IMG/VR virus record: IMGVR_UViG_3300035187_001625
Span: 1-33,575 of that record
Direction: 5' to 3' (one strand)
Source of the DNA: a virus
Length of the DNA stretch: 33,575 nucleotides
Shown here: positions 8,345 to 30,694 of the stretch, piece by piece
How the letters are laid out: each line of letters opens with the position of its first letter
Numbering within the stretch: position 1 is the stretch's first letter
Translations under genes and position numbers: made by a program
The notes under the pieces: generated by a model
What the model was told of the DNA's origin: nothing
Seen by the model: the letters and a program-made list of their open reading frames with translations, nothing else
The model's database searches: none

Positions 8345-9972
8345 TGATATATCTCCAATACACCATCAGTGCAAACAAAACGCCCAAAGCCACTAAATCG
8401 AAGTTGAAACGTTGCATCATTTACTATACCCAACCTTTGGTAAATAAACCGCGACTTTCTGTGTCCGGTAGGATTCATGTTCAAACGCCATCTAGAGCCA
8501 AAGGACTCGCCACCATCTCTAGAGATGCTTAAGTCAACAGCTTCAGAATAATTTACAACACTAGTTGTCTGGGAGAATGTGGCTTCTATACCAATACCTA
8601 CGCCTAATTCTGTTGTTATATCAACATAGGCTTCTGTTGCAATAATTTGACTCTGTGACGGTGTTTGTACAGGTATTATGGTCTTAATATTCTTTTGGCC
8701 ATTTTCGATAGTAAAGCCTAAACTTTTAGCAATAAAATAACGCTGCGTTGGTAATCTAACCGGAGGTGTTATCCGAATCCGAGGTATTTCTTTGGGCCCG
8801 CGAACTGTGTAATTAGCATCAGTATATTGTGTTCCAAAACGGTACACATCCCCGCCTTTTAGTGATACAAAGTAATAATCGTTGTTAAAAAATACCACCT
8901 GTCTTGCTATGTGATAATTTAAGTTTTCATCGGAAACATTAAAAAACAATCCGGTATTAAAATCGTAAGCATAGCTAATATTGTCATCAATAAAAGTAAA
9001 CTGATAAATCATGTGACCATCTTGTCTAAACAAAAACCCAGTACAGCTTGAGGGGTTTGTTAGATTAGACAAAACATAATCAATGCCATCCGTTGAAATC
9101 ATTTTAGTTTGGCTGCCTGTAGCATACATGATAACTGGACCAGACTGCTCATTAACTGCAAGCCAAACAATTAGATTATCAAGCTCCGCAACACTGGATG
9201 CATTTAAACAACCATAGTCAACGTTATACGTGGTACCTCTCTGATAAGGGAATAATGCTGCGCCAACATCCTGCCAACTTTCAGTAACGTTCGTGCCCAT
9301 CACAAGTAAGTTATTACCACCGCCTGGAACTGGAACCGCTGCTTGCATCCGTGTTGGTTTAGTTTGAATTGAACCAACTAACTCCGGATTAGATGCGCCT
9401 TTGGGCCAGCTAAAAGCATTATTAAAGCCAGACAAAATCCAGTAGTTAGTATTTTGACAAGCTAAAAGAAATCTTCCGTTTTGAAATGCAATGTACCCAG
9501 GGTTGCTGTAAGTTGTGTAATCGTAGTCGTTAGCTCCCAAGCCATTTGGTATTTTTGTTATTGGGCCGTCAGTACTCCAATTGTAAACATAGATGTATGC
9601 TCCATCCGTCACACAGATTTGTGCGTTGTTGTTTTCAGCAATATAAACATCGCCTTCAAAAGTATCCAGTGTTCCTCTAGCAAATGATTCTAATTGGCCT
9701 GTAACTGGGTTGCTGCTTATTTTGTAAAAAGCGTTCCCGATAACCGCTACCATTAGCTGGCCATTGAAAGTCGTGTAAATACCTCTACCCACTTTTTCGC
9801 TATTCAGCTCCAAAGCAGTGGTGTAGCCTGCGTATGGCACTAAAAAGTCATCACTTACAATAAAATTCCAGGTTTGTTCTTGGGATATTTTTGGGTAACG
9901 TCCAAAGTTAGAGCCACCAACAATTTTTAGCGGAACTTCTTGTACTTGTTGTACTGCATTTGGTGCAGGCAT
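8341..9972 (-). CDS. P22 gp10-like packaged-DNA stabilisation / tail hub protein
   Basis: This protein has about 543 residues from the ATG at 9972; a longer frame starts at a GTG at 9978, but GGGG sits six bases before the ATG. The overall layout fits P22 gp10 (about 470 residues): an N-terminal NFIVSDDFLVPYAGYTTAL segment, a beta-propeller-like body (VYIAENNNAQICVTDGAYIYVYNW, TNYWILSGF) and an end reading DLSISRDGGESFG...RLGIVNDATFQLRFSG. That end corresponds to the gp10 C-terminal region with the arrangement 'S.DG..+G ... R.G....FQLR'. It closes the connector beneath the gp4-like adaptor. It follows gp4-like directly, as in P22. Confidence 0.8.
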   Translation of the reverse strand: MPAPNAVQQVQEVPLKIVGGSNFGRYPKISQEQTWNFIVSDDFLVPYAGYTTALELNSEKVGRGIYTTFNGQLMVAVIGNAFYKISSNPVTGQLESFARGTLDTFEGDVYIAENNNAQICVTDGAYIYVYNWSTDGPITKIPNGLGANDYDYTTYSNPGYIAFQNGRFLLACQNTNYWILSGFNNAFSWPKGASNPELVGSIQTKPTRMQAAVPVPGGGNNLLVMGTNVTESWQDVGAALFPYQRGTTYNVDYGCLNASSVAELDNLIVWLAVNEQSGPVIMYATGSQTKMISTDGIDYVLSNLTNPSSCTGFLFRQDGHMIYQFTFIDDNISYAYDFNTGLFFNVSDENLNYHIARQVVFFNNDYYFVSLKGGDVYRFGTQYTDANYTVRGPKEIPRIRITPPVRLPTQRYFIAKSLGFTIENGQKNIKTIIPVQTPSQSQIIATEAYVDITTELGVGIGIEATFSQTTSVVNYSEAVDLSISRDGGESFGSRWRLNMNPTGHRKSRFIYQRLGIVNDATFQLRFSGFGRFVCTDGVLEIYQ

Positions 9973-19452: not shown

Positions 19453-19995
19453 ATGAAATTATACTTTTACTATAGCGCTATGAATGCCGGAAAGAGCACT
19501 AGTCTTATACAGGCTGCGCATAACTATGAGGAAAGGGGGATGCGTGTACTCACGCTCATCCCTGCTGTTGTCGGAAGAACAAGAATAGAATCGCGGATAG
19601 GGTTAACAAGAGATGCAATTGTGTACGATGGAAACAGTTTGGATGCTAGTTTGTTTGATGGCGTGTCATGTGTCTTTGTTGATGAGTCGCAGTTTCTTAC
19701 CAAGAGCCAGGTTATCTTCTTGGCTGGTGTTGTCGATACTTTTGATATTCCAGTGCTGTGTTATGGTTTGCGCACTGATTTCATGGGAGAACCTTTCGAA
19801 GGTAGTAAGTACCTATTATCATTGGCAGATGAAATCATAGAGATTAAAACCATCTGCTCTTGTAGTAAGAAAGCCACGATGAACATCAGAATAGACGCTG
19901 ATGGGAAGCGTATTGACGAAGGCGACCAAGTTCAAATAGGCAGAGAAGAAAGTTATGTTTCTGTTTGTCGGGCTGATTTTTTTAAAACTAAATAA
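19453..19995 (+). CDS. tdk: Thymidine kinase (type II)
   Basis: This 180-residue enzyme phosphorylates thymidine with ATP to dTMP, salvaging nucleoside for phage DNA. The P-loop SAMNAGKST is at 8-16, the Walker B VFVDESQF with D77 and E78, and the conserved CYGLRTDFMGEPFEGS lasso region at 103-118. The structural zinc site keeps C135, C137 and C172, but the fourth ligand, His in E. coli Tdk (CRKHY), is Asp here (CRADF, D175). Overall similarity to E. coli Tdk is clear (YFYYSAMNAGKST, DIPVLCYGLRTDF, EGDQV.IG..E.YVSVCR). It is shorter than the 205-residue E. coli protein at the C-terminus. Confidence 0.95.
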   Translation: MKLYFYYSAMNAGKSTSLIQAAHNYEERGMRVLTLIPAVVGRTRIESRIGLTRDAIVYDGNSLDASLFDGVSCVFVDESQFLTKSQVIFLAGVVDTFDIPVLCYGLRTDFMGEPFEGSKYLLSLADEIIEIKTICSCSKKATMNIRIDADGKRIDEGDQVQIGREESYVSVCRADFFKTK

Positions 19996-20495: not shown

Positions 20496-20522
20496 CAAAA
20501 ATAAACAGGGATTATCTCCCTG
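20496..20522 (-). terminator. Intrinsic terminator for the 26-residue gene
   Basis: On the minus strand CAGGGA, a 5-base loop and TCCCTG form a perfect 6-bp stem, followed by TTTATTTTTG. It is 21 bases after the stop of the small gene. On the plus strand no T tract follows, so it acts one way. Confidence 0.75.
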
Positions 20523-20543
20523 CCATCTCTATGTCATTCTTAT

Positions 20544-20624
20544 CTAGCTTGCTATATCGTGAGCAATCATCATAATCATTGCGCCGCACCACATCATGCC
20601 AAGCACTTGAGCTAATGTTAACAT
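20544..20624 (-). CDS. 26-residue hydrophobic, Met-rich membrane peptide
   Basis: The frame starts MLTLAQVLGMMWCGAMIMM and ends with IAHDIAS. Residues 3-20 are hydrophobic enough for one membrane-spanning helix, with six methionines plus one Trp and one Cys. An excellent ribosome-binding site (AGGAG, five bases before the ATG) is preceded by a consensus promoter at 20662-20690. A clear terminator follows, so this is a complete one-gene transcription unit. No relative is recognised. Candidate roles are membrane modulation, superinfection exclusion or lysis control. It could also be a regulatory RNA that happens to carry a short frame. Confidence 0.65.
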   Translation of the reverse strand: MLTLAQVLGMMWCGAMIMMIAHDIAS

Positions 20625-20661
20625 ATCATCTCCTGTAATTGCTTTATCATCTAATGACAAC

Positions 20662-20690
20662 ATTATATAACTACCGTTAACACGTGTCAA
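20662..20690 (-). promoter_or_regulatory. Perfect sigma-70 promoter (P1)
   Basis: TTGACA (20690-20685), exactly 17 bp, then TATAAT (20667-20662) on the minus strand. Both boxes match the consensus completely. Transcription should start near 20655 and run about 30 bases before the 26-residue gene. The 16-bp near-palindrome GTTAACACGTGTCAAC (plus strand, 20676-20691) covers the -35, so a regulator probably binds here. Confidence 0.85.
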
Positions 20691-20691
20691 C
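20676..20691. promoter_or_regulatory. Operator-like palindrome over the P1 -35 box
   Basis: GTTAACACGTGTCAAC is a palindrome except for one pair. The undecamer CACGTGTTRAC within it also occurs next to the -35 of the early promoter at 21726. The shared sequence suggests a common regulator. Confidence 0.5.
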
Positions 20692-20833
20692 ACTTATCAA
20701 TCATTATTAGCACAATATCTTTATTGTTGTCCGAGATGTGTCTGCTAACTATTATCCCCGACCAACCAAATATCCGACCTCCTAGGAAGCTCTACAAGCG
20801 ATTATCTCATACTAGGTAATACATTTACTCAAG

Positions 20834-20860
20834 AAACAAAAAAAGCCCGCTATGGGCTTC
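20834..20860 (-). terminator. Intrinsic terminator after terS
   Basis: AGCCC, a 5-base loop and GGGCT (20844-20858) followed on the minus strand by TTTTTTTG. It lies about 20 bases after the terS stop. It separates terS transcription from the small gene unit downstream. Between it and P1 (20691-20833) I see no gene. Confidence 0.85.
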
Positions 20861-20876
20861 TATGTCGTTCGTTGCA

Positions 20877-21571: not shown

Positions 21572-21716
21572 CTTATCCCCAAAATCTGTTTATAAGTTTG
21601 TGTATAACGTTAACATCATTAGTTAAATCATACACATCTTGACTTGATAACTCTTTATACGATTAGTTCATGATAACACGCAACAATAATATTTACAAAA
21701 TATCTAAATATTTGAT
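21572..21716. promoter_or_regulatory. Leader/promoter interval of the terS operon
   Basis: No gene is visible. On the minus strand, TTGTAA, 17 bp, TATCAT (about 21700 to 21672) is a plausible promoter for the zinc-finger and terS genes. A second candidate, TTGCGT, 18 bp, TATAAA, lies downstream of it. The stretch is AT-rich and sits back-to-back with the early plus-strand promoter. Confidence 0.4.
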
Positions 21717-21731
21717 TGTCACGTGTTGACA
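21717..21731. promoter_or_regulatory. Inverted repeat at the early promoter -35
   Basis: TGTCACGTGTTGACA has perfect 5-bp arms (TGTCA/TGACA), and its right arm is part of the -35. The core CACGTGTTRAC is shared with promoter P1. Confidence 0.5.
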
Positions 21732-29432: not shown

Positions 29433-29972
29433 TTAACTTATAGCTCTTGCATGCCATCCTTTTAAAAACTTCATTAATTCTGGGTTTCCTAAAGTCAATT
29501 TACGATAAAATATGATGCACTCGAAACGTAATAGGGTTAGTAGTACGCTACTTGTTGCTTTGTTAATTGCGCTTAGGGTGCCTTGGCCTATAACACCATC
29601 TACAGCAAGCTCATAGCCTAAATGATTTAAAGCCTGTTGGAGTAACTTAGCTGCTTGTTTACCACCCATGTTAACGGTCATGTCAAAAAACTTGGCAGCC
29701 ACTTCGTCATCTTCAATGTAAATACACTTATTGGCTAGCCAGAACTGCTCGTAATATATTTTCTTGGCTTGGTTTTCGGAAAGGTTTTTAATATCATTCG
29801 CATCAACATCGCCGTCATTATCAACATCAACCCAATTATTAGTTTTATAAATGCTTTTAAGAAAGCGCAAGCTAATACCATAATTAGTTGCGCCACCTGC
29901 ATCGCCTTTAACCTCATTGTAACCGCCCTCGTGTTTTAGTGTTTTTTTTATTGCGTATTCAAAGTTAGCCAT
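29433..29972 (-). CDS. Endolysin, glycoside hydrolase family 108
   Basis: This 179-residue muramidase cuts the peptidoglycan glycan strand. The family-108 N-terminus has KHEGGY with catalytic E15 (residues 13-18), then GDAGGATNYGIS. A loop with calcium-binding character, DVDNDGDVDAND (49-60), is inserted before the helix SENQAKKIYYEQFW. Residues 100-175 (NMGGKQAAKLLQQALNHLG and onwards) form the peptidoglycan-binding end found with this family. There is no signal peptide or SAR anchor, so a holin is needed for export. It overlaps the upstream DUF1353 gene by 8 bp. Confidence 0.9.
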   Translation of the reverse strand: MANFEYAIKKTLKHEGGYNEVKGDAGGATNYGISLRFLKSIYKTNNWVDVDNDGDVDANDIKNLSENQAKKIYYEQFWLANKCIYIEDDEVAAKFFDMTVNMGGKQAAKLLQQALNHLGYELAVDGVIGQGTLSAINKATSSVLLTLLRFECIIFYRKLTLGNPELMKFLKGWHARAIS

Positions 29973-30507
29973 GATGTTTGTTTTCCTTTTTGTACTTATG
30001 CTCCATTTCTTCTTGAATAACGGTGTCTGAGCATGTGTTATTATTAAAATACGAGCTTCCGAATAACCTTACGGCCAAATACATTTTTAAGCTTGTGAAT
30101 AAAGAGTTTTGCTCATAGCGTAATAATGAAAAAAAAATGTCATCAATATCTTTGCGTGATAAGTTATTGCTGCAAAGGTACATGTAATCGTGCCAAATTG
30201 CAGGATATACAAAACTTGACTTGTAAGGAGCCTCGATGAACCAAAGCGCTTGGGGTATGCTAGCAAAGTCAGTACGAAAGTATGCTGGTATCTCCATACG
30301 TTTTTTGTCAACTGTGTATATGGCTTCCTCGGTTATCATGTAGTCGTAGTTATCATAAGGAAACAATGGGCTTTTCTCCAAAATTTCCACGTCATGTGTT
30401 TTGATGTCGCGTAAAGTTATGGATAGTCCAAAGTAAATTACAGCAACAAAACCGAATGTTACCAGCAAAGCATTTCTTACTTTATAATTAAATATTTTTT
30501 GTTTCAT
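29965..30507 (-). CDS. DUF1353 membrane protein in the lysis cassette
   Basis: This protein has 180 residues from the ATG at 30507 (MKQKIFNYKVRNALLV). A single membrane segment is near residues 14-32. It is followed by the DUF1353 core with YFRTDFASIPQALWFI, a short gap, YPAIWHDYMYLCSN and a helical end. DUF1353 proteins are common next to phage endolysins; the conserved FRTDFAS...HD residues suggest a hydrolytic or metal site, but the activity is not known. Here an N-terminal membrane anchor is added. It overlaps the endolysin and the small gene upstream. Confidence 0.82.
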   Translation of the reverse strand: MKQKIFNYKVRNALLVTFGFVAVIYFGLSITLRDIKTHDVEILEKSPLFPYDNYDYMITEEAIYTVDKKRMEIPAYFRTDFASIPQALWFIEAPYKSSFVYPAIWHDYMYLCSNNLSRKDIDDIFFSLLRYEQNSLFTSLKMYLAVRLFGSSYFNNNTCSDTVIQEEMEHKYKKENKHHG

Positions 30508-30694
30508 ATTTTCGCCTATAGCCATTTCCAAAAAATGGTTTTATCTTTGATTTGCTATTTAGGTTATCCAAACTTTGTAACATTAACAACAACGACCAAT
30601 AATAAGCATGGATTGCTAGTATTATAAAACACCAAAAGATATTTTTTTTGGACATAAGTTTGTTATTGTTGTGCTTAATCATAGCTTTATACAT
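30488..30694 (-). CDS. Putative small membrane protein, holin candidate
   Basis: This protein has up to 68 residues, with one hydrophobic segment (FWCFIILAIHAYYWSLLLML, about residues 20-39) and a polar, basic C-terminal half. The start is uncertain: ATGs at 30694 and 30682 have poorly spaced ribosome-binding sites (AAGGA), and one at 30655 has none. It overlaps the DUF1353 start by about 20 bp and is the first gene after the tail-block terminator. Its place before DUF1353 and endolysin makes it the best holin candidate in the window, but similarity to known holins is not visible. Confidence 0.45.
   Translation of the reverse strand: MYKAMIKHNNNKLMSKKNIFWCFIILAIHAYYWSLLLMLQSLDNLNSKSKIKPFFGNGYRRKYETKNI

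Follow-up and report, generated by a model that had tools for sequence, protein, structure and literature searches.

A selected 26-codon membrane-peptide gene in a putative exchangeable cassette between phage terminase genes

The virus record analysed here (the window, 33,575 bases) carries, between its terS and terL genes, a 26-codon gene with a promoter and a terminator of its own. At the level of sequence, the encoded peptide is shown to be kept by purifying selection in two phages. We think it probable, though far from certain, that the gene belongs to a moron-like, exchangeable early cassette of an apparently integrase-free phage of ~37 kb, and that its product is a single-pass membrane helix whose target would be a membrane protein, either one of the host or one of an incoming phage.

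A compact transcription unit

The preliminary description had placed a perfect promoter, a ribosome site, a 26-codon frame and a T-tailed hairpin within 195 bp. All of these are present on the minus strand (20690-20496), where the unit and its upstream boundary read as follows.

20662 to 20690, minus strand: predicted promoter TTGACA-17-TATAAT, matching the consensus at 12 of 12 positions
20690 to 20685, minus strand: -35 element TTGACA
20667 to 20662, minus strand: -10 element TATAAT, 17 bases from the -35
20625 to 20655, minus strand: predicted 5' leader including an AGGAG ribosome site (20634-20630)
20544 to 20624, minus strand: 26-codon gene MLTLAQVLGMMWCGAMIMMIAHDIAS, assigned from its homologue in contig L113 and coding-like codon use; start ATG 20624-20622, stop TAG 20546-20544
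20512 to 20543, minus strand: untranslated fossil of the 3' end of a 65-codon gene; the old frame, beginning at 20550, reads KLDKNDIEMAGR and stop
20496 to 20524, minus strand: intrinsic terminator of the unit, GGCAGGGAGATAATCCCTGTT + TATTTTTG; hairpin 20524-20504, then a T tail
20841 to 20861, minus strand: terminator behind terS, AGAAGCCCATAGCGGGCTTTT + TTTG

For a window of this composition, 0.016 perfect TTGACA-17-TATAAT promoters are expected; the actual number is two, one in the unit and one at the divergent early promoter (21726). The hairpin that ends the unit folds with -14 kcal/mol (z = -4.2), and the terminator behind terS is predicted to insulate the unit from upstream transcription. 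Two attributes of a moron are seen here: a promoter of its own, recognised from sequence only (sigma70 consensus, 20690-20662, with the same type in relatives), and a terminator of its own together with insulation (hairpins 20524-20504 and, upstream, 20861-20841).

The promoter at 21726 lies on the plus strand and precedes early small genes. Its leader (ATAAAACAATTAAGGAGATATCATG) is resembled by that of the unit and by the leaders of the relatives' units. The unit lies on the strand of the late genes, and its early-type promoter and leader, flanked by terminators on both sides, suggest early expression apart from the late operon. Promoter-like sites on the plus strand inside the unit, sought as a check for the antisense RNA of a type I toxin, match at 9 of 12 positions at most, which is the chance level. 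A near-palindromic 16-mer, GTTAACACGTGTCAAC (20676-20691), spans the -35 of the unit promoter, and a version with three mismatches spans the -35 of the divergent early promoter (21715-21730). The 16-mer is a possible operator; by itself it is not significant.

The peptide and its frame

At 26 codons the gene is too short for routine gene finders, which normally skip genes of this size. The peptide contains 6 Met among its 26 residues and almost no charge. Its best 19-residue Kyte-Doolittle window scores 1.81, and a single membrane helix is predicted at about residues 2-21. Silent codons are chosen in a coding-like manner, much as in the phage's own genes: among 1882 open stretches of non-coding sequence, only 0.7% attain the log-odds of 4.4. 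Chance alone keeps about 20% of 25-codon frames open, and of 149 short frames taken at random from the window, 10 are as hydrophobic as the peptide. Taken alone, the window provides moderate evidence for a real frame. The GC content of the frame, a further property considered for morons, is 43% over only 81 bases, against 39.6% for the window.

Upstream of the ATG the frame continues open, reaching 49 codons when counted from a GTG at 20693. Starts giving 39 or 49 residues were rejected: they lie before the predicted transcription start, and in L113 a stop breaks the extension, in favour of the start that gives 26 residues.

Pfam, NCBIfam and PHROGs returned no family match for the peptide, holins and known exclusion proteins included, and searches of a phage collection and the PDB were likewise without a match. 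The NCBIfam hit to MmpA (E 0.16) falls far short of the cut-off and is a generic helix match. A likeness to CydX seen by eye was also discarded, its pairwise score being equalled by 38% of shuffles.

A diverged copy under purifying selection

The peptide had been described as lacking a recognised relative, which no longer holds. L113 is a 17.7 kb phage contig that was assigned to a Flavobacterium bin; where its DNA can be aligned with the window, identity is mostly about 80-84%. It contains the terS end, a TerL 93% identical at the protein level and, at the same place as in the window, a unit of the same build: a TTGACA-17-TATAAT promoter of its own, a GGAG ribosome site and then the peptide MLSIAQVLGMMWCGAMIMMIAHDIAS, with a hairpin immediately past the stop. 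The two peptides share 24 of 26 residues.

Across the frame, nine bases differ between L113 and the window. Seven of these differences are silent, the synonymous bias for which a search of related phages had been proposed, and two are conservative (T3S, L4I). Over the full frame omega is about 0.04, and a count of amino acid changes this low has P = 0.0007. The search pattern that led to L113 fixes codons 10-16, so the test was rerun without them; with 5 silent and 2 changed positions in 18 codons, omega is 0.08 and P = 0.01. The test thus compares two distinct peptide sequences with nine differences, seven of them outside the search pattern. The two other forward frames suffer 9 changes each and contain stops in L113. 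A conserved frame whose overlapping frames are broken points to a real gene, and the earlier claim of a Met-rich membrane peptide stands on firmer ground.

The preliminary description had also raised a small RNA with an incidental frame. A short predicted transcript between a strong promoter and terminator would suit a regulatory RNA, but 7 of the 9 differences in L113 cluster at third codon positions and spare the protein, relatives replace the entire middle of the RNA by longer genes, and Rfam gives no match for the unit. We regard this reading as highly improbable.

Three further degenerate scans of viral contigs with parts of the peptide recovered only the window's own haplotype and chance matches. 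Across 298 further genomes of the genus to which the L113 bin is assigned, the peptide core is absent. The Flavobacterium group does not typically use promoters and ribosome sites of the E. coli type. Together, the atypical signals and the missing core make the Flavobacterium label of L113 doubtful.

Different genes within a fixed frame

Two contigs from other metagenomes (L002, L004) match the window exactly along 1,209 bases, which shows that the arrangement is not an assembly error. A third, L003, is identical until it ends inside the unit promoter (window about 20672). Such an end would fit a sampled population with different genes behind a shared promoter.

Other relatives carry other genes at the site. 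L005 and L008 (TerL about 99% identical) and L028 (82%) hold a gene of 64-65 codons, 78-92% conserved, between the kept type of promoter and leader and the terminator. L006 has an 80-codon and L007 an 83-codon gene, both with promoter and terminator. The same promoter type stands at the same place in all five and in L113; similar hairpins end the unit in L005, L028, L006, L007 and L113, and an equivalent hairpin follows terS in L005, L006, L007, L008, L028 and L113. Promoter, leader and terminator kept around differing genes point to a fixed frame for gene exchange. In gapped alignment, the 64-65-, 80- and 83-codon genes are 25% identical, and their products are predicted to be soluble. The 65-codon product has a predicted fold of two helices and four strands (pLDDT 83), for which the best viral match (E 7e-4) carries no name or function. 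It had been reasoned that relatives keeping the RNA while breaking the frame would speak against the peptide. L005, L008 and L028 do keep the RNA ends, around a different, intact gene; the frame itself is kept in L113.

Beyond the peptide stop, the DNA of the window spells the last codons of the 65-codon gene of L005, L008 and L028, out of frame and with the old stop codon inside the terminator loop. No such tail follows the peptide stop in L113. We take the cassette of the window to be a recombinant of an L113-like peptide gene and L005-like flanks, with the short match AAGCTAG marking the joint. Recombination would have placed the peptide gene in a cassette that once held the 65-codon gene.

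The fossil could also be read the other way, with the whole unit a broken remnant of the 65-codon gene and the Met-rich helix an out-of-frame product. A second frame, YVNISSSAWHDVVRRNDYDDCSRYSKLDKNDIEMAGR, is indeed open and runs into the old C-terminal codons. In L113, however, the second frame is interrupted by a stop and altered at 9 places, whereas the peptide frame is altered at 2. Codon use in the second frame does not look coding (log-odds -2.6, versus +5.9 for the peptide frame), it lacks a start with a ribosome site, and the middle of the unit has no significant match to the 65-codon gene. As far as sequence allows, the L113 copy refutes the remnant, which we find hardly credible.

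Genomic context

The window encodes terminase, portal, capsid and connector proteins as well as a DnaB-like helicase, a replication initiator, a YqaJ exonuclease, RecT, SSB, a thymidine kinase and a GH108 endolysin. By terminase, its nearest cultured relatives are Pseudoalteromonas phage H6/1 (51%) and a Vibrio phage (50%). RecT, the YqaJ exonuclease and SSB are enzymes suited to swaps of the kind proposed above, and the RecT system would be a plausible route. A tyrosine or serine integrase was found neither in the window nor in four relatives (two of 37-39 kb and two shorter; the records are possibly incomplete). The phage is probably virulent.

In 15 more distant contigs (TerL 58-69% identical), terS and terL lie less than 150 bases apart, while in the group of the window and in others the gap holds small accessory genes. 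Like a moron, the unit lies between genes that are adjacent in relatives, but the insert here is a 2 kb block with further genes. Since the insert between terS and terL is such a block of 2-3 kb, the unit itself need not be the inserted piece.

The part between the unit and terL also differs between phages: it holds a thymidine kinase in the window (19453-19995), an inverted kinase in L007 (about 9243-9773), and a DNA-methylase-like frame in L113 (974-1348) and apparently in L008 (about 2140-2665). In L040, the terS-terL gap contains a different membrane peptide of 35 residues, MIDAYITILSLISLTSITAIFVGIALKLLSAKSKK, with a ribosome site and its frame at gap offset 601. In L077-L085, L074, L076 and L094, TerL is interrupted at about residue 71, its two segments lying some 490-800 bases from each other; an intron, an intein or another insert would produce such a pattern.

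Discussion

In the scheme we propose, host RNA polymerase would transcribe the unit early, alongside the divergent early operon and without depending on the late operon around it. The peptide would insert into the inner membrane as one helix and there bind one particular membrane protein, belonging either to the host or to a competing phage, instead of merely perturbing the bilayer. A specific helix-helix contact is suggested by the near-total conservation, which includes polar and small residues within the helix (Q6, W12, G14 and the small-residue face A5-xxx-G9-xxx-C13) as well as H22 and D23 at the end of the peptide. We judge the most likely function to be modulation of a membrane complex of the host, or of a defence bound to the membrane, followed by exclusion of a second phage. 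Either of the roles suggested in the preliminary description, alteration of the host membrane or blocking of a second phage, may still apply.

In the latter case, an early inner-membrane peptide would block DNA entry or the receptor-side channel of related phages. Its small size and membrane location, the strong independent promoter and the exchange of genes at one site would all fit. Against this, the peptide has no sequence or family link to known exclusion proteins, and the soluble products predicted for the alternative genes (64-83 codons) indicate that the site is not devoted to membrane exclusion. Superinfection exclusion as the explanation of the unit is therefore rather unlikely.

A short hydrophobic helix also calls to mind a small holin, a pinholin or a single-gene lysis peptide. 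However, the endolysin gene (29433-29972) is about 9 kb away, so the peptide gene lies outside the lysis cassette; a strong early-type promoter would mean early lysis, no holin family is matched, and a separate one-helix frame by the endolysin could serve. We judge a lysis peptide very unlikely. The separate frame (30488-30694, 68 codons, one membrane helix, near the GH108 endolysin) is a candidate lysis protein.

Our preferred reading, an early cassette acting on a membrane protein, has several known counterparts. Phage morons, as described in PMC7067206 (citing Juhala et al. 2000 and Cumby et al. 2012), are accessory genes that temperate phages carry as self-contained units; the term is defined for prophages, from which morons are expressed during lysogeny. 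The unit shares with them its own promoter and terminator, a place between genes adjacent in other relatives, and variable content. It differs in that no integrase was found in its phage and in combining an early-type promoter with the late-gene strand. Gp11 of the staphylococcal phage PhiNM1 binds host MurG and DivIC and stops cell division (PMC11237401). Like the peptide, it is a small membrane protein of a phage, and the peptide would share its early timing; the host is of another type, and the likeness is one of kind, with no homology claimed. On the host side, CydX (cytochrome bd) and MgrB (PhoQ) are single-helix regulators of membrane complexes (PMC8404706). The peptide is comparably short, is predicted to be single-pass in the inner membrane, and may likewise act by helix-helix contact, but its resemblance to CydX is at chance level, and neither Pfam nor NCBIfam gives a match. 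Phage genes for small proteins of under 100 residues are mostly of unknown function (PMC11323111). The peptide belongs to this size class, and stands apart from such genes generally in having only 26 residues and a complete transcription unit of its own.

More speculatively, and with less confidence than we place in the cassette itself, the site could be an exchange socket of an integrase-free phage group, in which early counter-host genes (of 64-65, 80, 83 and 26 codons) are swapped whole within a fixed promoter/leader and terminator. The 26-residue helix might then represent a new minimal class of inhibitor directed against one host membrane complex or membrane-bound defence.

Taken together, the second, diverged copy indicates that selection acts on the protein of a 26-codon gene that gene finders normally pass over and that is equipped with a promoter and a terminator of its own; the peptide is small enough for direct synthesis and test. 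The site would mark a socket of swapped small early genes, which may thus be mined for anti-host and counter-defence functions.
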